A program made the position numbers and the translations under genes. Shown one piece after another: positions 9,755 to 21,505 of a DNA stretch of 37,693 bases. Each line of letters begins with the position of its first letter. Position 1 is the first letter of the stretch. The notes below the pieces were generated by a model. It ran no database searches, was not told where the DNA came from, and saw nothing but the letters and a program-made list of their open reading frames with translations. This DNA is from Zoogloea sp. (GTDB taxonomy: Bacteria; Pseudomonadota; Gammaproteobacteria; Burkholderiales; Rhodocyclaceae). The stretch spans positions 1-37,693 of the forward strand of contig NZ_JAQVCN010000047.1 in NCBI RefSeq assembly GCF_028689785.1, in the 5' to 3' direction.

Positions 9755-10162
9755 TCAGCGGGGCATGAAGGGACTCAGGGAGAAAAAGCCCCGCGCCTTT
9801 GCTTGCTCCCCATGGTGAATGATGATGCGGTGGATCAGCCAGCGTCCGTCGCGCAGGCGCCAGGCGCGTACGGTTTCGGCATAGGTCAGTGGCCCGCTGT
9901 GGCCCGGGCGGGGCGGGGCTGAGTCGTCTTCGAGTACGTAGCGGAACGCGCAGTAGCAGGGCTGTTCGTCTTCGTCCCGGCCAAGGATGCGTGCCGCCTT
10001 GACCAGGTATTCCTTGTAGTGGTCGAAGTACAGCGGTGCAATCACCTGATCGCGCCATTCGGGGGGCAGGCCTTCGCTCCAGCGGATGGCCCCTTCCGGA
10101 CGGCGGACGTGCCCCGGTTTGATGTCGAAATACGGGTGTGTGTCGTGCCCGTCGTGCTGCAT
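9755..10162 (-). CDS. Small conserved-looking protein of unknown function under a Mo-box
   Basis: This is a 135-residue soluble protein that I do not recognise. It has no signal peptide or membrane segment. The N-terminus is His/Asp-rich (HDGHDTHP). The C-terminal part, with [20 protein letters not shown] followed by HHGE, has the look of the last strands of an NTF2/SnoaL-like fold, where a W-x-I strand ends the sheet; this is only a resemblance. The ATG at 10162 is chosen because AAAGAGGGG precedes it. The frame stays open upstream, but that part would read through an operator. Twenty bases upstream of the ATG lies the best Mo-box in the window (10183-10208), so expression is probably controlled by molybdate through ModE. 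It is divergent from the TonB receptor operon. Confidence 0.65.
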
Positions 10163-10182
10163 GATGCGCCCCTCTTTGCAAT

Positions 10183-10208
10183 TCGATGTATAGATTGGTA
10201 TATATCGA
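10183..10208. promoter_or_regulatory. ModE operator (Mo-box 1), in front of the 9755-10162 gene
   Basis: Half-sites TCGATGTATA and TATATATCGA are separated by six bases (GATTGG). The right half extended by one base (to 10209) is a perfect match to the half-site ATCGNTATATA when read on the other strand; the left matches 9 of 11. The core also fits TATAT-N7-TAYAT described for E. coli ModE, with one mismatch. It lies 21-46 bp upstream of the ATG, where it would overlap the promoter. Confidence 0.78.
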
Positions 10209-10359
10209 TATAAGCATAGGGCGTGCCTGTTGAGTTCTCGGTCCGCCAGGTTTTGGCGCCGTGTCTTCTGGCACTTTTTTTGGCGCCCATGGGCCGAGGC
10301 GTGTGTGTGCAATGAGCCCGGGGTATGTATGAAATCCTTCATTTTGTAGGTTTTCGAAC

Positions 10360-10387
10360 ATCGATATGTAGATCTTTATATAGCTGT
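10360..10387. promoter_or_regulatory. ModE operator (Mo-box 2), upstream of the TonB receptor operon
   Basis: Left half ATCGATATGTA (10360-10370) matches ATCGNTATATA at 10 of 11 positions. The six-base spacer is GATCTT. Right half TATATAGCTGT (10377-10387) matches at 9 of 11. The spacing is identical to Mo-box 1. It lies about 135 bp upstream of the receptor start codon. Confidence 0.7.
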
Positions 10388-10473
10388 TTCAGGGTTGGTC
10401 GGCGCTTTGCCTTTGTGCTGGCAGATTGGCCGGAGCGGGCATGCGGGTTGCTAATCCGGGATTGGTGATGTTC

Positions 10474-10501
10474 TTCGATATGTAGTGGCCAATACAGGCG
10501 A
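10474..10501. promoter_or_regulatory. Possible third Mo-box half-site (weak)
   Basis: TTCGATATGTA (10474-10484) repeats nine bases of the left half of Mo-box 2 (TCGATATGTA), but the right half after a six-base spacer (AATACAGGCGA) matches poorly. It ends about 20 bp before the chosen receptor start. It may be a low-affinity or half site, possibly binding cooperatively with Mo-box 2. Confidence 0.4.
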
Positions 10502-10521
10502 TGCCTGGTTTCGGGGGGGTG

Positions 10522-12573
10522 ATGGAGCGACTGATTTGCAGGTGGATGGTGGGCGGGGTGTCGGTGCTGGCCATCGGCAGTGCCGGGGCGGAGCAGGGGG
10601 TTTTTGAACTGGGTACGGTGGAAGTGGTGGGCAGTCCGCTGCCCTCTCCCGACCCGGCCGAGTCGGTGGTCAAGGCGGACGACCTGCGGCGCTTCAACCG
10701 GGATACGCTGGGGGCGGCAGTGGTGCTCATGCCAGGGATGAATCTGTCGCGCAACAGCCGCAATGAGGACATCGTGTACCTGCGCGGCTTCGATGTGCGC
10801 CAGGTGCCCCTGTTCATCGATGGCATCCCGGCCTATGTGCCCTATGACGGCTATGTGGACTTCGGTCGTTTCACCACCTTCGACCTGGGCGAGATTCGGG
10901 TCGCCAAGGGCGCGGCCTCGCTGCTTTACGGCCCCAACACCCTGGGCGGAGCGATCAACCTGGTGAGTCGCAAGCCGCGCACAGGGCTGGAGGGTGACCT
11001 CAAAGCCGGCGTCGGCAGCGGCGGGCTGCAAACCTACGCTGTCAATGTGGGCAGCAATCAGGGGCCTTGGTATTTCCAGCTGGGGGCCAGCTACACCGAC
11101 CGCAAGTGGACCCCGCTCTCCAGTGACTACCGGCCTCGCAGCATTCCCACCAGCGCCACCAATCCGGCGCGTAACGTGCTGGAAAACGGTGGTCATCGGG
11201 AAAACTCCTACTCCTCCGATGCGCGTCTGTCCCTGAAGATCGGGCTGACCCCCAACGCCACCGACGAGTACGCGGTGGGCTACGTGAAGCAGGAGGGGCG
11301 CAAGGGTAATCCGCCCTATGCCGGCGATGCGCCAGGCCAGTACCTCAACATCGGCGGCGGCGCCAACAGTCGCTTCTGGCGCTGGCCGTACTGGAACCTG
11401 GAAAGCACTTACTTCATCGGCAACATTGCCTTGGGGCGCGAGCACATGCTCAAGGCACGGGTGTACCAGGACAACTACGACAACAAGATTCAGGCCTACA
11501 CCAACGGGCGTTACACCACCCAGATCTCCAACACCACCAACTTCCCGAGCTGGTACAGCGACACCACCACCGGCGCTTCGGTGGAGCTGGCCAGCTTCGC
11601 CTTCAAGGGGCATGAGCTGGCGGTGGCTGCCCACTACAAGGAAGACAAGCACGCGGACAACGGCCTCGGCGGCACCAAGAACTACCGGGACGTGACCACC
11701 TCCCTGGCCGTCGAGGACAGCATCCAGTTGTCGGAACGCTGGCGCATGCGCCTGGGCTTCAGCCACGACAAGCGCGATGCCCGCGAGGTGTATTACTGGC
11801 CGGTCGGCTCCACCTCGGGCAGCAACTGGCTGGTAGAAGTGGCCCGCAGCCTGGACGGCGGTCATGAGGCCTATGCCAGCGCGGCGCGCAAGACGCGCTT
11901 TCCGACCATCAAGGACCGTTACTCGGCTCGTCTGGGCGGTGCCCTGCCCAATCCCGATCTGAAGCCAGAGGAATCCCTGAATCTTGAGTTCGGCCTGAAG
12001 GGGCGGCCCTGGGCCGGCGCCCGCGGGCACGCCGCCGTGTTCTACAGCCGCATCGACAACCTGATGCAGTCCATGAACATCGTGCCGGTGTCCCTGTGCA
12101 ACCAGCCCGGCCTGTCGGCCGCCACGTCGTGCACCCAGTTGCAGAACATCGCCGAGGCACGCCATGCCGGCGTCGAGCTGTCCATCGACCAGGACCTGGG
12201 GCGTGGCTGGCAGGTGGGCGGCAACTACACCTACCTGGATCGGGACAACCGCAGCTCCGACAAGCCTCTCACCGACACGCCGGGTAACCGCCTCTTTGCC
12301 TACGCCAGCTGGAGGCCGGCTGACCGCTGGGAGCTGCTTGGTTCGGCCGAGGCCGAGAACGGCCGGATGGTGGCCTACGGCAGCGGTAATGCGGCGAGCT
12401 ATGTGAAGCTCTCCGGCTACGCCCTGGCCAACCTCAAGGTGGTTTACAAGCCCGCCCCCAGCCTGGCCATCGAGGGTGGCGCCAGCAACATCCTGGACGC
12501 CAACTATGCCCTGGCCGACGGCTACCCCATGCCGGGCCGGATGTGGTTTGCCAACGCCCGTTACGCCTTCTGA
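10522..12573 (+). CDS. TonB-dependent outer-membrane receptor, likely molybdenum-regulated
   Basis: This 683-residue outer-membrane protein has a signal peptide (about 1-23, ending GSAGA), a TonB-box-like segment (TVEVVGS) and a plug domain. The plug contains YLRGFDVRQVPLFIDGIP and the typical GASLLYGPNTLGGAINLVSRKP-like closure. A 22-strand-type barrel follows, ending in aromatic ARYAF. It resembles iron-chelate receptors, but the substrate cannot be read from sequence. I use the ATG at 10522, which follows a G-run; an ATG at 10501 has no ribosome-binding site and overlaps the third Mo-box. It is the first gene of a tight operon (10 bp, then a 4-bp overlap). Mo-boxes upstream suggest control by ModE and therefore a molybdenum or molybdate-chelate substrate; this is inference. 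Confidence 0.88.
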   Translation: MERLICRWMVGGVSVLAIGSAGAEQGVFELGTVEVVGSPLPSPDPAESVVKADDLRRFNRDTLGAAVVLMPGMNLSRNSRNEDIVYLRGFDVRQVPLFIDGIPAYVPYDGYVDFGRFTTFDLGEIRVAKGAASLLYGPNTLGGAINLVSRKPRTGLEGDLKAGVGSGGLQTYAVNVGSNQGPWYFQLGASYTDRKWTPLSSDYRPRSIPTSATNPARNVLENGGHRENSYSSDARLSLKIGLTPNATDEYAVGYVKQEGRKGNPPYAGDAPGQYLNIGGGANSRFWRWPYWNLESTYFIGNIALGREHMLKARVYQDNYDNKIQAYTNGRYTTQISNTTNFPSWYSDTTTGASVELASFAFKGHELAVAAHYKEDKHADNGLGGTKNYRDVTTSLAVEDSIQLSERWRMRLGFSHDKRDAREVYYWPVGSTSGSNWLVEVARSLDGGHEAYASAARKTRFPTIKDRYSARLGGALPNPDLKPEESLNLEFGLKGRPWAGARGHAAVFYSRIDNLMQSMNIVPVSLCNQPGLSAATSCTQLQNIAEARHAGVELSIDQDLGRGWQVGGNYTYLDRDNRSSDKPLTDTPGNRLFAYASWRPADRWELLGSAEAENGRMVAYGSGNAASYVKLSGYALANLKVVYKPAPSLAIEGGASNILDANYALADGYPMPGRMWFANARYAF

Positions 12574-12583
12574 GGAGATTGTC

Positions 12584-13885
12584 ATGGCGGATCGATTCAC
12601 GCCCTCGCGCCGGGCCTTCCTGCGGGGTGTCGGTGCCTTGGTTGCAGCTGGCGTCACTGCGCCGCTGGAGGCTGCGGTACGTCGCGACGTGGTGGTGCTC
12701 ACTGCCTATCCGGATGCAGTGGTGTCGCGCTTCGAGGCCGCTTTCGAGAAAGCCTGGCCGCGCTACCGCCTGCGCATCGTGTGGCGCATGCCCCACGATG
12801 CGCTGCCCTATCTGCGCCAGCCGGGGCAGGGCGGGGTGGATGTGTACTGGAGCGCCTCGCCCCGGACCTTCACCCAGCTCAAGGCCGAGCAGGCCCTGCG
12901 CAAATTGCCGGTCAGCCTGGCCGGGCTGCCGGGGCGGGTGGGCAACAGCGTGATCGACGATCCGGACGGCTACTTTGCCGCGTCGGAAGTGGCGGGCTAC
13001 GGCTTTGCGGTCAATCCCGGCTACCTGGCTCGTCACGGCCTGCCCGTGCCGGCGGACTGGAGTGACCTGGCCCAGCCGGCCTATGCCGGGCACCTGCTGG
13101 TGCCGGACCCGGTGGAAGTGGGCTTTGCGCCGGTGCTGGTGGACATCCCCCTGCAGGCCTACGGCTGGGACAACGGCTGGGCCCTGTGGAGCGCCATTGC
13201 CGCCAACGCGCGCTTTGTCGGGCGCGGTGGCAGCTTCGTGTCCGACGAGCTGGGGGCTGGGCGCCAGGGGGTGGGGCTGTCCATCGACTTTTTCGTGGCT
13301 TCGGCCATCGCCAACGGTGCGCCCCTGCAGTTTGTCTATCCGCGCCAGGGCGGCGTCAATCCGGCCCATGTGGCGGTGACGGCGGCCAGCCCCAACCCGG
13401 AAGGCGCCAAGGCCTTCGTCAGCTTTGTGTTGTCAGAGGCCGGGCAGCGCCTCCTGACCCATCCGGACATCCGCAAGCTGCCGGTGCGCCCTGCCGTGTA
13501 TGCGGGCCTTCCGGCAGACCATCACAACCCCTTCGCGGTGGCCGCTCAGGGCGGCTATCGCTACGACAACGGGCGCGGCAGGGGGCGGGCGGCACCCGTG
13601 GCTGCGGCCTTCGGGCAGGCCTTGGTGCAGCGCCGGGCCGTGCTGGCGCCGCTGTGGCAGAAGCTGCGCGCCGCCGACGCCGCGACGTGGGCGAAGGTCT
13701 GGCCACTGCTCTCCGCTCCGCCGTGCAAGGAGTCCGAGGTGGATGACCTGGCCGTGCAGCAGGCCTTCTTCACGCGCCGTGATGACCCGGCCGCGGAGGC
13801 CAGGGCGGCCGAGCTGGAGGCGGGGTGGGCTGCGGCGGCCAGGGCGCGCCATGCTCAGGCGGCCCAGTTGCTGGGGGTGGCATGA
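12584..13885 (+). CDS. Orphan periplasmic binding protein of the iron/polyamine ABC type, Tat-exported
   Basis: This 433-residue extracellular solute-binding protein family member starts at an ATG preceded by GAGGAG, 10 bp after the receptor gene. Residues about 9-30 (SRRAFLRG followed by a hydrophobic stretch ending APLEA) form a twin-arginine signal, so it may be exported folded, possibly with a bound ligand. The mature part begins VVVLTAYP, the first strand of type-II binding proteins of the FbpA/AfuA or PotD kind. It continues with VDVYWSASPRTF and GYGFAVNPGYLA, and its C-terminal extension is Ala-rich. No permease or ATPase gene lies beside it, so either it uses a remote transporter or it acts as a periplasmic carrier or sensor. 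Anion- or metal-chelate binding is possible; specificity is unknown. Confidence 0.82.
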   Translation: MADRFTPSRRAFLRGVGALVAAGVTAPLEAAVRRDVVVLTAYPDAVVSRFEAAFEKAWPRYRLRIVWRMPHDALPYLRQPGQGGVDVYWSASPRTFTQLKAEQALRKLPVSLAGLPGRVGNSVIDDPDGYFAASEVAGYGFAVNPGYLARHGLPVPADWSDLAQPAYAGHLLVPDPVEVGFAPVLVDIPLQAYGWDNGWALWSAIAANARFVGRGGSFVSDELGAGRQGVGLSIDFFVASAIANGAPLQFVYPRQGGVNPAHVAVTAASPNPEGAKAFVSFVLSEAGQRLLTHPDIRKLPVRPAVYAGLPADHHNPFAVAAQGGYRYDNGRGRGRAAPVAAAFGQALVQRRAVLAPLWQKLRAADAATWAKVWPLLSAPPCKESEVDDLAVQQAFFTRRDDPAAEARAAELEAGWAAAARARHAQAAQLLGVA

Positions 13886-15219
13886 TCCGGTGGGGCGCGG
13901 TCGGGCTGATCCTCGCCTGCCTGTTTCCGGTGGCAGGGATATGCGCGGGGGAGATGTCGGGCGTGCCGGCGGTGGACGCCGGGCGAGACGCCTTTCTGCG
14001 CCCTGTCGCCGGTCTGGACGAGGACGAGCGGGAGCGCTTTTTCCGCGGGCGCGCCCTGTTCAACCAGAGCTGGGTGGTGGCACCGGCCAGGGACGATCGG
14101 GTGGACGGCCTGGGGCCCCTCTACAACCGTCTGGCCTGCGTGTCCTGCCATGCCCGCAATGGCCGGGGGGTGCCGCCCGAATCGCCGGGCGAGCGCATGC
14201 AGTCCATGTTGCTGCGGCTGTCGGTGCCAGGCCGGCCGGCGGAGGGCGGGGTGCGCCCCCATCCGGCTTACGGCGAGCAATTCAACGAAGAAGCCATCCC
14301 CGGAGTGCCGCCGGAGGGGCGGGCGGTGCTGCGCTGGGTGGAGTCTCGTCGGCGTTTGGCCGATGGAACGCTGGTCCGCCTGCGCCAGCCACGAATCACT
14401 TTCCGGGAACTGGGTTACGGCCCCCTGGGGCGGGTGCTCGTGTCGCCCAGGGTGGGGCAGCAGGTGGTGGGTATGGGGCTGCTCGACGCCGTCCCGGTGG
14501 CAACCCTGGAGGCGCTTGCCGCCGAGAGGCGGCCGGATGGGGTCAAGGGGCAGCTCAACCGGCTGGCGGGCGGTGTGCCGGGCCGCTTCGGCCACAAGGC
14601 CAACATGCCGGACCTGCGGGCGCAGATCGCTGGCGCTTTCCTGGGCGATCTCGGCATCACCTCGCCCCTGCATCCCCAGGAGAATTGTCAGCCGGTGCAG
14701 AGGGCCTGCCGTCAGGCGCCGGATGGCGGCCGGCCAGAGCTGGGGGCGGCAGAGCTGGACGACGTGGAGTTCTATCTCGCCCATTTGGCTGTGCCGGCGC
14801 GGCGCGACGAGGATGTGCCGGCGGTACGCCGGGGTGAGGCGCTGTTCTCGGCGGTCGGGTGTGCGGGCTGCCATCGACCGCAACTCCGCACCGGAGACAG
14901 CCCGCGCTTCCCACGTCTGGCGGGGCTTACGATTGCGCCTTACTCTGACCTGCTCCTCCATGACATGGGGCCGGGGCTGGGCGACGGGCGTCCGGACTTC
15001 CAGGCCTCGGGCCGGGCGTGGCGGACGCCGCCCCTGTGGGGGATTGGGCTGACACGGACGGTGAGCGAAGTGGAGCGCTATCTCCACGACGGCCGAGCCC
15101 GCAGCCTGACTGAAGCGATTCTGTGGCACGACGGTGAGGCCCGCCGTGCCCGCCAGCGCTTTGAGCGTATGGGGCGGGCGGAGCGCGATGCGCTGCTTGC
15201 CTTCGTGAAAAGCCTGTGA
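13882..15219 (+). CDS. Di-heme c-type oxidoreductase (DHOR, DUF1111/COG3488)
   Basis: This 445-residue periplasmic protein has an N-terminal signal peptide (about 1-22) and two heme c attachment motifs: CVSCH at 86-90 and CAGCH at 327-331. The layout and conserved blocks (FFRGRALFNQSWV, GRFGHKANMPDLRAQ, ARTPPLWGIGLT-like near the C-terminus) fit the di-heme oxidoreductase family, also annotated as putative thiol oxidoreductase. This family is structurally related to di-heme peroxidases and is often found near metal-uptake genes. The ATG overlaps the stop of the binding-protein gene (ATGA), so the two are translationally coupled. A redox step on an imported metal chelate, such as reductive release, would fit the context but is inference. 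Confidence 0.87.
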   Translation: MIRWGAVGLILACLFPVAGICAGEMSGVPAVDAGRDAFLRPVAGLDEDERERFFRGRALFNQSWVVAPARDDRVDGLGPLYNRLACVSCHARNGRGVPPESPGERMQSMLLRLSVPGRPAEGGVRPHPAYGEQFNEEAIPGVPPEGRAVLRWVESRRRLADGTLVRLRQPRITFRELGYGPLGRVLVSPRVGQQVVGMGLLDAVPVATLEALAAERRPDGVKGQLNRLAGGVPGRFGHKANMPDLRAQIAGAFLGDLGITSPLHPQENCQPVQRACRQAPDGGRPELGAAELDDVEFYLAHLAVPARRDEDVPAVRRGEALFSAVGCAGCHRPQLRTGDSPRFPRLAGLTIAPYSDLLLHDMGPGLGDGRPDFQASGRAWRTPPLWGIGLTRTVSEVERYLHDGRARSLTEAILWHDGEARRARQRFERMGRAERDALLAFVKSL

Positions 15220-15259: not shown

Positions 15260-15287
15260 TTCGCTATATACATGTGCATATAAATTG
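15260..15287. promoter_or_regulatory. Mo-box-like site between convergent genes
   Basis: TTCGCTATATA (15260-15270) matches the ModE half-site ATCGNTATATA at 10 of 11 positions. After a six-base spacer (CATGTG), the other half (CATATAAATTG) keeps only the inner ATATA-like part. It lies 40 bp after the di-heme gene, where no protein-coding gene starts on the plus strand, and about 80 bp downstream of the 3' end of the molbindin gene. Its target is unclear. Confidence 0.5.
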
Positions 15288-15368: not shown

Positions 15369-15797
15369 TCAGGTGGCAACGCCGATGATTACCGATGGGG
15401 CCTTGAAGACGGCTGTGGCCGGTACGCCTACCTTCAGCCCGAGGGCCGTCGCGCCGTCACGGGTGATGGTGGCATACACGGTCAGGCCGTTGGGGAGCGC
15501 GATCGCCACTTCGGTGTTGACCGGGCCTTCCGTCAGGGCGCTCACCATGCCGTCGAGACGGTTGCGGGCCGACAGCCGGACCCTGTCCCCCTCGGTGAGA
15601 ACCAGTACGGACGAGGCTTTGATCAGGGCCTTGACGGCCTTTCCGGCCACCAGTCCGAGTTCGGCGACGCTGTCGTTGGTGACCGTGGCGACGATCTGCA
15701 GGCCGCCCGGAAGGGCAATGCCTACTTCGGAATTTATGGCGCCGGGTTTGACGGTGTGGACCTTGCCGTCGAAGACATTACGGGCACTGATTTTCAT
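15369..15797 (-). CDS. mop: Molybdenum-pterin/molybdate-binding protein with two Mop domains (molbindin)
   Basis: This 142-residue cytoplasmic protein is made of two tandem Mop/TOBE domains. Each begins SARN (residues about 4-7 and 76-79), contains a glycine-rich IALPGGL or IALPNGL strand, and ends in a KASSV or KAPSV strand. Molbindins bind molybdate or tungstate at subunit interfaces and are thought to buffer cytoplasmic molybdenum. The ATG at 15797 follows CAGGAG. It is divergent from modE, and the shared 149-bp region carries a Mo-box at 15915-15942, about 118 bp upstream of this gene. The arrangement resembles mop genes of phototrophs that are activated by a ModE-type regulator. The sequence is closely similar to the C-terminal half of ModE here. 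Confidence 0.92.
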   Translation of the reverse strand: MKISARNVFDGKVHTVKPGAINSEVGIALPGGLQIVATVTNDSVAELGLVAGKAVKALIKASSVLVLTEGDRVRLSARNRLDGMVSALTEGPVNTEVAIALPNGLTVYATITRDGATALGLKVGVPATAVFKAPSVIIGVAT

Positions 15798-15914: not shown

Positions 15915-15942
15915 TACGTTGTGTAGCTATCTATATAGGTGT
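15915..15942. promoter_or_regulatory. ModE operator (Mo-box) in the mop-modE divergent region
   Basis: TACGTTGTGTA and TATATAGGTGT flank a six-base spacer (GCTATC), the same geometry as Mo-boxes 1 and 2, with the inner core TGTGT-N7-TATAT. Match to the half-site is moderate (7 and 8 of 11). It ends four bases before the modE start codon and covers its ribosome-binding region, as expected for autorepression of modEABC. Confidence 0.65.
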
Positions 15943-15946
15943 ATTG

Positions 15947-17565
<1,619 letters not shown>

Positions 17566-17568
17566 GCA

Positions 17569-18258
17569 ATGCACCTGAGTGCAGATGACTGGTCGGCGAT
17601 CCGGCTGACCCTGGAGCTGGCCAGCATTGTCACGGTGTTGTTGCTGATCATCGGCACGCCAATAGCCTGGTGGCTGGCACGCAGCCGCTCCCGCCTGCGC
17701 GGCGTGGTGGGCGCAATCGTTTCTCTGCCCATCGTCTTGCCGCCCACTGTGCTGGGCTTCTACCTGCTGGTGCTGATGGGGCCGCAGGGAGCCATCGGGC
17801 GCTTCACCGACGCAGTCGGCCTGGGGCGTCTGCCCTTCACCTTCACCGGCCTGGTGGTGGCTTCCATCCTGTATTCCCTGCCTTTCGTCGTGCAGCCGGT
17901 ACAGAACGCCTTTATGGCCATGGGAGATCGGCCCCTGGAGGTGGCGGCGACCCTGCGGGCTTCTCCCTTGCGCACTTTCTTCACCGTGGCACTGCCCCTG
18001 GCCCGGCCCGGCTTCATCACCGCGGCCATCCTGGGCTTTGCCCATACCGTGGGTGAGTTCGGCGTGGTGCTGATGATCGGCGGCAACATCCCCGACAAAA
18101 CCCGGGTGATCTCGATGCAGATCTACAACCACGTGGAGGCGCTGGAGTATGGGCAGGCCCACGGGCTGGCGGCGCTGCTGCTCGGTTTCTCGTTTGTGGT
18201 GCTGCTGGCGCTGTACACCGTGGGTGGTGCCCGCAACACCTTGGGGGCTGGGCGATGA
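17569..18258 (+). CDS. modB: Molybdate ABC transporter permease ModB
   Basis: This 229-residue inner-membrane permease has five predicted hydrophobic segments (about 15-35, 45-70, 85-110, 140-165, 197-218). The EAA loop that docks on ModC lies around [22 protein letters not shown]. It forms a homodimer that passes molybdate from ModA through the membrane. It lies 3 bp after modA, and its stop overlaps the modC start by four bases (ATGA). Confidence 0.96.
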
Positions 18259-19331
18259 GCGGCGTGCATGTGGCCTGCCGCCTGCCCCTGGCGGACTTCG
18301 TGCTGGAGGCGGATCTGACCCTGCCCGGGCGGGGCGTGACCGCGCTGTTTGGCCCGTCCGGCTCCGGCAAGACCACCCTGCTACGCTGTGTGGCGGGGTT
18401 GGCCCGTGGGGTGGGGCGGGTTGAGATCAATGGCGAATGCTGGCAGGACGACGCCCGGAGCTTCTTTCTGCCGACGCATCGGCGTGCCCTGGGCTATGTC
18501 TTCCAGGAGGCCAGCCTGTTTGCTCATCTGTCGGTGCGGGCCAACCTGGAGTTCGGCCTCAAGCGCATCGCCCCGGTCGAGCGCAGGGTGGGTTGGGACG
18601 CGGCGCTTGAATTACTGGGTATCGGCCACCTGCTGGAGCGGGGCACCGAGGCTTTGTCCGGTGGCGAGCGCCAGCGCGTGGCAATCGCCCGGGCCCTGCT
18701 TACCAGCCCGCGCCTGTTGTTGATGGACGAGCCTTTGGCCGCCCTTGACGCCAGGCGCAAGCACGAGATCCTGCCCTATCTCGAGCGCCTGCATGATGAG
18801 TTGGCCATTCCGGTGCTGTACGTGAGCCATTCGCCGGACGAGGTAGCCCGCCTGGCTGATCACTTGGTGCTGCTGGAGCAGGGGCAGGTACTGGCCAGCG
18901 CTCCCACCGGCGAGGTGCTGACCCGCCTCGATCTGCCTCTGGCCCGGGACGAAGAGGCCGCCGTGCGGGTGGATGCCCGGGTGCTGTCCCACGACGAGGC
19001 CTATCAGCTGACCTGCCTGGGTTTTGCCGGCGGGCTCATTCAGGTGACCCGCAAGGCGCTTGCCGTGGGGGCCGCGGCGCGTATCAAGATCCAGGCGCGG
19101 GACGTGAGTATCGCCTTGGCCGGCGATAGGCGTTCGAGCATCGTCAATCGCCTGCCGGCCCGCATCGTCGGCTTTGGAGAGGCCGCTCATCCGGCCCAGT
19201 GCCTGGTCAGCCTGGATGTGGCAGGAACCCCCCTGCTGGCGAGGATCACGCGTCTCTCTCGGGATCAGCTTGGGCTGGTCGAGGGCATGATGGTCGTGGC
19301 GCAGATCAAGTCGGTCGCGCTGCTGGGCTGA
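18255..19331 (+). CDS. modC: Molybdate ABC transporter ATPase ModC
   Basis: This 358-residue ATPase energises ModB. Its nucleotide-binding domain shows Walker [10 protein letters not shown], signature [15 protein letters not shown], Walker [13 protein letters not shown] and the switch histidine in YVSHSPDE. Residues about 290-358 form a C-terminal TOBE regulatory domain ([12 protein letters not shown] to the end) that can bind molybdate and inhibit transport in related proteins. It is the last gene of the modEABC run. No intrinsic terminator with a T-run follows. Confidence 0.96.
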
Positions 19332-19498: not shown

Positions 19499-21505
19499 TC
19501 AGTTCAGTGCAATATTGGCCTTCAGCCACAGGGTCCGGCCGGGTTCGTTAACCCGGGTGGTCTGGGTAAAGCCGCCCACCATGGCGCCGCTACGGCTGAT
19601 GTACTCCGCGTAGGTCCGGTCGAACAGGTTGTCCACCCCGGCGGTGAACAGCACGCCCTTGCGCGGTCGGTAGCCGGCGTTCAGAGAGACGATGGCAAAG
19701 CCTGCCGAGGCACCGATGTCCTGACCCACCACGTTGCCGTAGCCGGTGTCGTAGCGCTTCTGGCCCTGCACCATGCGCAGCAGTGCGCCGGCGTTCCACG
19801 TCTTGTCGTCGTAGCCGGCGCCGAGGCGGCCTTCCAGGGGTGGAATCTGGGACAGGGGCTTGCCGCTGCTGTCGTTCTCGCCATGCACCCAGGCCAGGGT
19901 GCCCCAGGCCTTCCAGAAATTCCCCAGGGCGTAGCTCATGTCGCCTTCCAGGCCGTAGGTGGTGGCGTCGATGTTGAGGGCATCGGTGGCGAAGGCGTTG
20001 ATCTGGCGGATCTGGATGAAGTCCTTGTGCTTTGCGTAGAACAGGGACGCGGAGGCGCGCAGCGGGCCGGCAGCGTAGATGGCGCCGGTGTCGAGTTGGG
20101 TGGTCTTTTCAGGTTTCAGAAAGAAGGTGCTGGCCGTGCCGGTCATCATCATCGAGGTGGCACCCGGTGCCTTGGTGCGTTCCCAGTAGTCGGCGGCCCG
20201 CTCGCTGTGGCCGAGGCCGGCGTACAGGGTGGTGGTGGGCGTAAAGGCGTTTTCCCAGCGCAGGAAGCCGGCCTTGAGGGTGTCCTTGTCCCTGCGCCCC
20301 GAGGTGGCCTTGCCGCTGCGTTGGTCTTCGGCTTCGCTCCAGTCCAGGCGTGCGCCGCCAATCAGGCGGTGGGCGGCGTTGATTTCGTGAGTCAACTCGC
20401 CAAACACGCCCCAGGTGTTGAAGCGCATGTCGGGGCGCCGGCTCAGGCTGTCGTAGCCGGAAACGGCAGTGCCGCTGGCGCTGCGCAGGGTGTGGTCATT
20501 GGTCTGGAAGTCGATGCCGGTTTCCAGGGTGCTGCGGGGGCTCAGGTCGAGGGTGGCGGCGACACGCCCGCCACGGGTTTCCCGGTCGGGGTTGCTGACC
20601 ATCTTCATGCCCGTGGCGCTGCGCAGGCTGTAGTTGTCCATCACGTGATCCACGTAGTTGCGGTAAATCTGGCCCTCAAGCTTGGCGAGCAGCGGGCTGA
20701 TGCGGGACTTCTCGAACTTCAGCCCCACGTTGGTCCGGTCGAAGGCGGTGCCATCCATGCTGCGGTCGGCGTAGGCGGCGTAGCCGTCGCTCTTGGCAAA
20801 GCTCAGTTCGATGCGGGTGTTCTCATCCGGAGTCAGCCCCACTGCGCCGCTCACGCTCCAGCGGTCGTAGCGGGAGTGCACCTGGCGCCCGGCGCCGTCC
20901 TTGTAGTCCTGGCTGTGGGAGTGGGTACCGGTGATCTCGCCGTAGTAGCGTTCATTGCCGACGCCTGCTTCCAGCACCTGGTCGTTGCGTCCGAAGCTGC
21001 CGGCCAGCAGGCTGCCTTCGGCATAGGCGGAGAAGGCCTTGCGGACTTTTGGCGTGCGTTCGAAGAGCACGACTCCGGCGCTGTTGCCGGGGCCGTACTT
21101 CACCGTCTGCGGGCCTTTCAGTACGGTGATGCGGTCGAAGGCTTCGGGGAAGACGTAGGCGGTGGGTGGGTCCATGCGCATGCCGCAGCCGCCCAGGATC
21201 ATCTCTCCATCCAGCAGGATGCCCAGGCGCGAGGCGGCCATGCCGCGGAACACCGGGTCACCGTCGGTGCCGCCCTTGCGGATCACCGAGAAGCCGGGGA
21301 TGTTCTTCAGGTAGTCGGCGCCGTCGTGGGCAGGCACAGGTTGGCGCGGGGCGCGGGGGTCGGTGCTGACGGTGAGCGGCGCCTCCATGGCGGGGGCGGT
21401 GACCACGACTTCCCGCAGGGTGGTGTCAGCGTAGGCCGGAAAGGCGCAGGAAATGGCGAAGGCGACGGGCAGGCGGGCGTGCCAGCGGGATGCGGGTTGA
21501 GGCAT
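19499..21505 (-). CDS. oprC: TonB-dependent copper receptor (OprC/NosA family)
   Basis: This 668-residue outer-membrane receptor has a signal peptide (about 1-26, ending FPAYA-DT) and a TonB box near LREVVVTAP. Its plug domain carries the family signature GGCGMRMDPPTAYVFPE followed by FDRITVLKGPQTVKYGPG. The GGCGMRMDPPT segment is characteristic of OprC/NosA receptors, which take up copper and in denitrifiers help supply nitrous oxide reductase. The barrel ends with the usual hydrophobic LKANIALN. The gene converges on modC. Upstream, a hairpin at 21583-21607 separates it from the chemoreceptor gene on the same strand. I saw no evident copper-responsive operator. Confidence 0.9.
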   Translation of the reverse strand: MPQPASRWHARLPVAFAISCAFPAYADTTLREVVVTAPAMEAPLTVSTDPRAPRQPVPAHDGADYLKNIPGFSVIRKGGTDGDPVFRGMAASRLGILLDGEMILGGCGMRMDPPTAYVFPEAFDRITVLKGPQTVKYGPGNSAGVVLFERTPKVRKAFSAYAEGSLLAGSFGRNDQVLEAGVGNERYYGEITGTHSHSQDYKDGAGRQVHSRYDRWSVSGAVGLTPDENTRIELSFAKSDGYAAYADRSMDGTAFDRTNVGLKFEKSRISPLLAKLEGQIYRNYVDHVMDNYSLRSATGMKMVSNPDRETRGGRVAATLDLSPRSTLETGIDFQTNDHTLRSASGTAVSGYDSLSRRPDMRFNTWGVFGELTHEINAAHRLIGGARLDWSEAEDQRSGKATSGRRDKDTLKAGFLRWENAFTPTTTLYAGLGHSERAADYWERTKAPGATSMMMTGTASTFFLKPEKTTQLDTGAIYAAGPLRASASLFYAKHKDFIQIRQINAFATDALNIDATTYGLEGDMSYALGNFWKAWGTLAWVHGENDSSGKPLSQIPPLEGRLGAGYDDKTWNAGALLRMVQGQKRYDTGYGNVVGQDIGASAGFAIVSLNAGYRPRKGVLFTAGVDNLFDRTYAEYISRSGAMVGGFTQTTRVNEPGRTLWLKANIALN

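Follow-up and report, generated by a model that had tools for sequence, protein, structure and literature searches.

Molybdenum (Mo) uptake by bacteria is usually described as starting at ModA in the periplasm. The uptake of chelate-bound Mo has long been discussed for nitrogen fixers, and Azotobacter takes up the metal through catechol siderophores. Several metal sensors control TonB-dependent receptors, i.e. Fur (siderophores), Zur (ZnuD), and NikR. The accessible part of one article adds CueR and the receptor OprC as a further pair of this kind (PMC8602904). In Rhodobacter capsulatus, mopA-modABC and morAB are repressed through Mo-boxes according to the available sections of another report (PMC6925177), and the ModE consensus of E. 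coli, as given in the available text, is ATCGNTATATA-N6-TATATANCGAT (PMC545781).

The DNA analysed here (the window) is a whole contig (C76; 37,693 nt) from Zoogloea sp. that contains a predicted TonB-dependent receptor operon preceded by Mo-boxes. It has the operator consensus and the inferred control of Mo-uptake genes in common with the ModE/MopAB regulons (modABC in E. coli; mopA-modABC and morAB in R. capsulatus). As far as the accessible sources describe them, those regulons comprise genes for inner-membrane transport and nitrogenase, whereas the best boxes of the window front an outer-membrane receptor. As in the metal-sensor-controlled TonB receptors, a metal sensor would stand over an outer-membrane receptor; the differences are that the sensor, and presumably also the metal, is one of Mo, and that the partners are a Tat-type binding protein and a di-haem oxidoreductase or, at homologous loci, a FecCD importer with DUF2478. 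MolABC/MorABC-type importers resemble many of the homologous loci, which carry Peripla_BP_2, FecCD, and ATPase genes. By gene content, the operon in the window does not belong to this type: it lacks a FecCD permease, which is present at other loci, and would hand its cargo over to ModABC. The nearest outer-membrane molybdate system that we found, ModA-IcmP of Pseudomonas aeruginosa (H2-T6SS), likewise has an outer-membrane component for molybdate, as described in the accessible part of the article (PMC8602904). By the catechol route of Azotobacter, too, a diazotroph obtains Mo as a chelate, and no Mo-specific receptor is named for it in the available portion of a review on iron (PMC10669500). 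In contrast to Azotobacter, the Zoogloea genome contains no NRPS condensation or IucA/IucC domain, so that a chelator of those kinds would have to come from other organisms. A search of titles and the beginnings of abstracts, for the most part among the top-ranking hits, yielded no prior report of a ModE-controlled TonB-dependent receptor; most of the subscription literature, RegPrecise, and a survey of ModE sites published in 2003 (BMC Microbiol 3:24) were outside this search. A 2024 review of receptor substrates contains no word beginning with “molybd”.

Mo-boxes were scored as the number of matches, out of 20, to the ModE consensus; no strand was assigned to them. The two highest scores of the whole window lie in the gap between the receptor gene and a small divergent gene. 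Mo-box 1 (10182..10209), which is distal to the receptor and adjoins the divergent gene, reads TTCGATGTATA GATTGG TATATATCGAT and scores 18/20. Mo-box 2 (10360..10387), the middle box, reads ATCGATATGTA GATCTT TATATAGCTGT and scores 17/20. For comparison, 60 dinucleotide shuffles of the window had a maximum score of 14, attained in three of them, and both palindromes are thus far above chance. The initial annotation had placed the two best Mo-boxes of the window at this site, as near-consensus sequences between a TonB receptor operon and a small unrecognised gene, and both the scores and the gene layout bear this out. The half-site that it described as an 11/11 match is present on the minus strand (10199-10209). 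Its further statement that the two boxes share the same half-site and spacer is correct only for the spacer length of six nucleotides: the spacer sequences differ, and the half-sites are similar, not identical.

A third, proximal box (Mo-box 3, 10474..10501) stops some 20 nt short of the probable start of the receptor gene. It scores 12/20 when read ungapped and has one degenerate arm. Its left arm and right end are kept in three relatives (G009, G010, and G011), and stronger counterparts were found at L035 (position 7462, 14/20) and L037 (position 6898, 15/20). At L037-L039 all three box positions score at least 14, with spacings of 183-184 and 117-118 nt, compared with 178 and 114 nt in the window. 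Judged from this pattern, the gap upstream of the receptor contains three putative Mo-boxes, not two. A promoter scan of 10100-10560 detected no sigma-70-like site, so that the position of the boxes relative to a promoter could not be fixed.

The receptor operon consists of three genes and is read in the direction of mop, modE, and modABC. Its first gene (10522..12573, + strand) encodes a TonB-dependent receptor with plug and beta-barrel domains (PF07715 and PF00593, both above cut-off); the open reading frame opens at 10501, and homologues suggest the ATG at 10522 as the start. It is followed by the gene for an SBP_bac_6-type periplasmic binding protein (12584..13885, + strand) with the twin-arginine motif SRRAFLRG, and by the gene for a DHOR di-haem oxidoreductase (13882..15219, + strand), the start of which overlaps the preceding stop (ATGA). 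Membership of the DHOR family is met (PF06537, 269.8 bits, above cut-off), and the protein has two CxxCH motifs, as have 21 of the 22 members of the DHOR neighbour cluster. No molybdoenzyme gene is present in the operon. TonB itself is encoded in the genome (PF03544, four matches over cut-off). We could not name the cargo from the receptor. It falls short of the models for TonB-dependent siderophore receptors (TIGR01783, 123.2 bits vs a cut-off of 223.5), vitamin B12 receptors (TIGR01779, 118.4 vs 599.7 bits), and copper receptors (TIGR01778, 35.6 vs 472.45 bits), and the solved structures nearest to the receptor model, BtuB, FpvA, and OprC, represent a generic match that names no ligand. A separate copper-type TonB receptor (19499-21505, - strand; TIGR01778, 699.6 bits) is encoded just beyond modC, without a Mo-box.

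The operon is followed by a gene for a mop-like molbindin with two TOBE domains (15369..15797, - strand; ends read by eye), by modE (15947..16774, + strand), and by modA, modB, and modC (16810..19331, + strand; modA was assigned by a domain match, modB and modC were named from the sequence without a family search). The modE assignment rests on domain matches, i.e. an N-terminal HTH domain (TIGR00637, 106.5 bits, over the cut-off of 98.5) and two C-terminal molybdate-binding (TOBE/Mop) domains (TIGR00638, 127 bits in two stretches; PF03459, also in two stretches). The protein fails the full-length equivalog model of the E. coli type (NF007957, 203.9 bits vs a cut-off of 369), as may be expected of a distant ModE orthologue. 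The distance of 5.4 kb given earlier between modE and the boxes has to be revised to about 5.6 kb, while the weaker box attributed to modE was recovered as two weak, overlapping matches at 15915 (13/20) and 15927 (14/20). The former (15915..15942) lies between mop and modE, and similar matches occur at the same place in relatives. A further, conserved Mo-box (15260..15287, 14/20), which the initial annotation does not mention, is situated where the oxidoreductase gene and mop converge. It is recognisable in all eight aligned loci, with counterparts at L034 (8157), L035 (12268), L037 (11860), L038 (11511), and L039 (11554). Its target is unknown; it lies between convergent 3′ ends, a place at which one would not expect the promoter of a recognised gene, and a hidden small RNA, an antisense promoter, or a roadblock are possible explanations.

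Seven other genomes of the Zoogloea group encode an orthologue of the receptor (75-96% identity). It adjoins mop-modE-modABC in six of them; in the seventh (G009) the contig does not extend that far. All six Zoogloea-group loci with upstream DNA (L034-L039) have a box of 16/20 or higher before the receptor; L040 has no upstream DNA and was left out of this count. At L037-L039, 3.8-5.6 kb separate the divergent gene from the receptor gene (3.8 kb of inserted DNA in L037 and L038), and the insert codes for a second, different receptor that is 93-100% alike in the three loci. The genes for this second TonB receptor (L037 4281-6578; L038 4057-6354; L039 4108-6402; and L056 6482-9633) are confined to one lineage of the Zoogloea group, are divergent, and share the three-box region, and the protein is a candidate for a second Mo receptor. 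An SBP_bac_11-type gene lies beside it in L056. At L048 (G016:C114, 2489-6297), only fragments of the receptor and binding-protein genes were found between an 18/20 box and mop-modE, an apparent case of decay or assembly loss.

For a wider survey, genome contigs were searched with an alignment of 12 receptors, and the best 80 loci were kept (40-96% identity). The best box score within 1 kb upstream was recorded; two loci with less than 300 nt of upstream DNA (L057 and L059) were dropped, leaving 78. Of these best-scoring loci, 58 have a box of at least 15/20, including 31 with at least 17/20, and 15 have no box of 14/20 or higher. The nine Janthinobacterium loci have values of 18-19/20, and a Pandoraea locus (L118) reaches 20/20. 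Of 1560 shuffles (20 per upstream region), a single one attained the threshold of 15, as did one of 674 control segments taken from these loci. Since the relatedness of the loci matters, we also counted by genus: among the 34 named genera in this set, 26 have at least one locus with a box of at least 15/20, and in 23 every locus has one. For comparison, none of 12 unrelated receptors is preceded by a box of 14 or higher (best value 13), and the copper-type receptor of the window scores 10. These controls are the 15 weak-match loci L019-L033 without L022, a fragment of a true orthologue, and without L023 and L031, which have too little upstream DNA; L033, which carries a flag for a stop codon in its reading frame, was retained.

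Mod genes, defined by tblastn as a modE-like gene, mop, or modB together with modA or modC, are present in the fetched flanks of 39 of the best 80 loci. Of these 80, 71 have a mod neighbour or a box that scores 14 or more; the nine with neither are L060, L061, L062, L067, L074, L077, L078, L090, and L105. When 397 genomes were drawn evenly from the phylum, 12 of them, the source genome included, contained the receptor at E 1e-40 or better. In this sample, which overlaps in part with the 80-locus set, the receptor or its operon is preceded by a box of 14 or higher, or has a modE-like gene in its vicinity, at 10 of 12 loci outside the window (exceptions, L147 and L153). A ModE-type HTH domain (E 1e-20 or better) is encoded in all 15 genomes with a receptor match of about E 1e-54 or better and in 71 of the 134 other relatives (149 relatives in total; counted by eye and uncorrected for relatedness). 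The initial annotation had proposed conservation of the boxes in orthologous regions as a check on its claims, and the values of 6/6 (at least 16/20) in the Zoogloea group and 58/78 (at least 15/20) in the wider set meet it. Its inference that the ModE regulon reaches the outer membrane is supported by the conservation of boxes before receptors, in the absence of data on binding or on a molybdate response, and at this level the predicted pairing of receptor and ModE boxes is wider than first described.

The genes behind the receptor differ between loci. SBP_bac_6 and DHOR genes, as in the window (module A), occur at 24 and 22 of the best 80 loci, respectively. Module B consists of DUF2478, Peripla_BP_2, FecCD, and ATPase genes, and its first three clusters touch 34, 36, and 34 loci. 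Module C is a cluster of small proteins at 21 loci, one member of which has a PF00174 Oxidored_molyb domain; nine of its 21 members have no cysteine after the first 20 residues, and the other 12 have at least one. Membership of the neighbour clusters is approximate, and the family names rest on a scan of one representative per named cluster. In G079 the operon continues from the binding-protein and oxidoreductase genes into modB-modC. At many loci the receptor gene is followed by Peripla_BP_2, FecCD, and ATPase genes for a FecCD-type importer, a class that includes the Mo-binding MolABC. The periplasmic partners thus vary between lineages while the receptor and the putative ModE boxes persist, and constant regulation combined with changing periplasmic machinery suggests that the cargo of the receptor is the fixed point.

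The operators, their conservation, the operon, and its mod neighbourhood are supported by the observations described above. That ModE controls the receptor operon is, in our judgement, very probable, with its binding to the boxes being inferred. Repression, as opposed to activation, is an inference from the analogous mod and mop promoters and from mopA-modABC and morAB of R. capsulatus. With enough Mo, molybdate-bound ModE would sit on the boxes and repress the operon; when Mo is scarce, ModE would leave the DNA and the receptor would be made. The receptor would draw a scarce Mo compound, most likely an environmental molybdate chelate, into the periplasm, where the Tat-exported binding protein would hold it. 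The di-haem oxidoreductase might attack the ligand or shift its redox state, so that molybdate would become available to ModA and ModBC. For both periplasmic proteins the role is inferred, and an attack on the chelator fits the gene order and is a guess. Because the operon has no permease, the binding protein would need to pass its cargo on, and the neighbouring modABC is the likely taker. Overall, an outer-membrane Mo-acquisition operon that is repressed by ModE and probably serves a molybdate chelate appears to be a likely reading, in which binding, repression, and cargo are inferred. Taken separately, we consider a Mo-related cargo, likewise inferred, to be rather likely, and we propose the chelate with its oxidative release steps only tentatively. 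Free molybdate, being small, is able to pass through porins and has no obvious need of a receptor, which counts against the proposal, as do the 15 loci without a box of 14/20 or higher, the nine with neither such a box nor a mod neighbour, the absence of NRPS condensation and IucA/IucC domains from the genome, and the solved structures, which name no ligand. A molybdate chelate fits a TonB receptor better than free molybdate does; according to the available sections of a review, such receptors serve compounds that are too large or too scarce for porins (PMC11658791). A high demand for Mo is plausible for this organism, since the genome carries nifH and genes for a molybdenum-storage protein (see below).

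Another point against the proposal is that the Oxidored_molyb-type protein in one partner lineage would also fit a molybdoenzyme-linked role. ModE of E. coli activates some molybdoenzyme operons, and ModE could also be an activator here, so that the operon would be on when Mo is available and the receptor would import an organic substrate for a molybdoenzyme. The support from the 21-locus cluster is confined to the one member scanned, the operon in the window has no molybdoenzyme gene, and the recurrent neighbours are mod and mop genes; in addition, the nine members of the cluster without a cysteine after the first 20 residues presumably lack the usual means of ligating Mo. We therefore regard an activator role as unlikely. 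The sequence data do not separate Mo from tungsten, and tungstate is also a ligand of ModE and of several oxyanion binding proteins. A tungstate, vanadate, or other oxyanion complex might thus be the cargo, with ModE as a shared sensor, but nifH, modABC, and the storage genes make a demand for Mo plausible (the search covered no demand for tungsten or vanadium), and such a cargo seems quite improbable.

In sequence, the receptor comes closest to the families of siderophore, colicin-I, and cobalamin receptors, and the binding protein is similar to those of the Fe(III) type, as would be expected if an iron-siderophore receptor were merely modulated by Mo-ModE, e.g. to limit competition between Mo and iron for catechols. 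However, among the matches listed, which cover 25 of 30 models, the siderophore-receptor models remain below their cut-offs, and the neighbours are mod genes, which, on the basis of family models and gene neighbourhood alone, leaves little room for this explanation. The surroundings of the boxes are visibly richer in A and T than the window with its 65% G+C, a composition in which consensus matches could arise by chance; the shuffles, the control segments from the same loci, the unrelated receptors, and the conservation contradict this, and chance occurrence was rejected with near certainty.

If the preferred reading of a ModE-repressed Mo-acquisition operon is true, a ModE-controlled TonB receptor would add an outer-membrane step to Mo uptake, would provide a concrete receptor with which chelate-bound uptake can be tested, and would help to account for the competition of bacteria for trace amounts of Mo. 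The recurrence of the pairing in many related bacteria points to a dedicated, so far uncharacterised route for scarce Mo, and the DUF2478 proteins, the SBP_bac_6/DHOR pair, and the 135-residue product of the divergent gene are candidate Mo-handling proteins. More speculatively, it is possible that a dedicated family of outer-membrane Mo receptors exists in Beta- and Gammaproteobacteria under the control of ModE and imports chelated Mo, perhaps as a molybdophore-type complex made by other organisms, with one lineage using oxidative release by DHOR.

The divergent gene (9755..10162, - strand) encodes a protein of 135 residues that belongs to a conserved family. Attempts to name it failed: the window member has no Pfam or NCBIfam match, and its structural model (pLDDT 78.3, pTM 0.71) gave no confident fold match (best PDB match, E 0.49). 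A D-lactate dehydrogenase model weakly matches 4 of 15 family members (best E 0.00023). In the window and at L034, L035, and L055, where the gap is shared with the receptor, a box starts 47-52 nt before the gene. At L095, L096, L099, L100, and L130, the gene heads the receptor operon and lies directly behind two boxes of 15-18/20. One box of 15/20 was found at L062 and one of 14/20 at each of L039 and L048, and no upstream box above 11/20 was found at L037, L038, and L101. The gene therefore looks like a predicted ModE target in most, not all, lineages. Box matches inside its coding start, which code for conserved residues, were left out of the counts. Such matches (14-17/20) cover the first codons at L037 (3144), L038 (2891), L039 (1133), and L048 (2849); they may represent an intragenic operator or merely follow from the conserved residues.

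In the whole genome (5.08 Mb), three sites have at most three mismatches over 18 positions, and two of these are Mo-boxes 1 and 2. The same scan with a reversed control pattern returned one site. The third site (C90:153352-153377; L052 5353-5378; 16/20) is situated between the molybdenum-storage-protein genes, about 340 nt before them, and a DUF2325 gene, of which it is also upstream. The beta subunit of the storage protein was identified by its match to PDB 2ogx_B (E 1.3e-149). In G010 (C55:86239-86264; L168) the same 26-mer and the DUF2325 gene are kept, and no storage gene was found at E 1e-50. The 1.5 kb upstream of the storage genes of G011, G015, G020, and G021 score only 11-13. ModE control of the storage genes is thus not used as support, which slightly lowers our confidence in a Mo-related cargo and in the overall reading, and because the site persists in G010 without a storage gene and the storage genes of the relatives have no box above 13/20, the DUF2325 gene is predicted to be the likelier target of the C90 site. 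Why a DUF2325 gene should be a ModE target is unexplained. A second ModE-like protein is encoded elsewhere in the genome (G000:C29:8083-8337; L003), in an open frame of 143 residues with a match over the HTH domain only. In a Burkholderiales MAG (L122, 4235-11917), storage-protein, ModE-type, and modABC-like genes and a receptor gene are found in one cluster.
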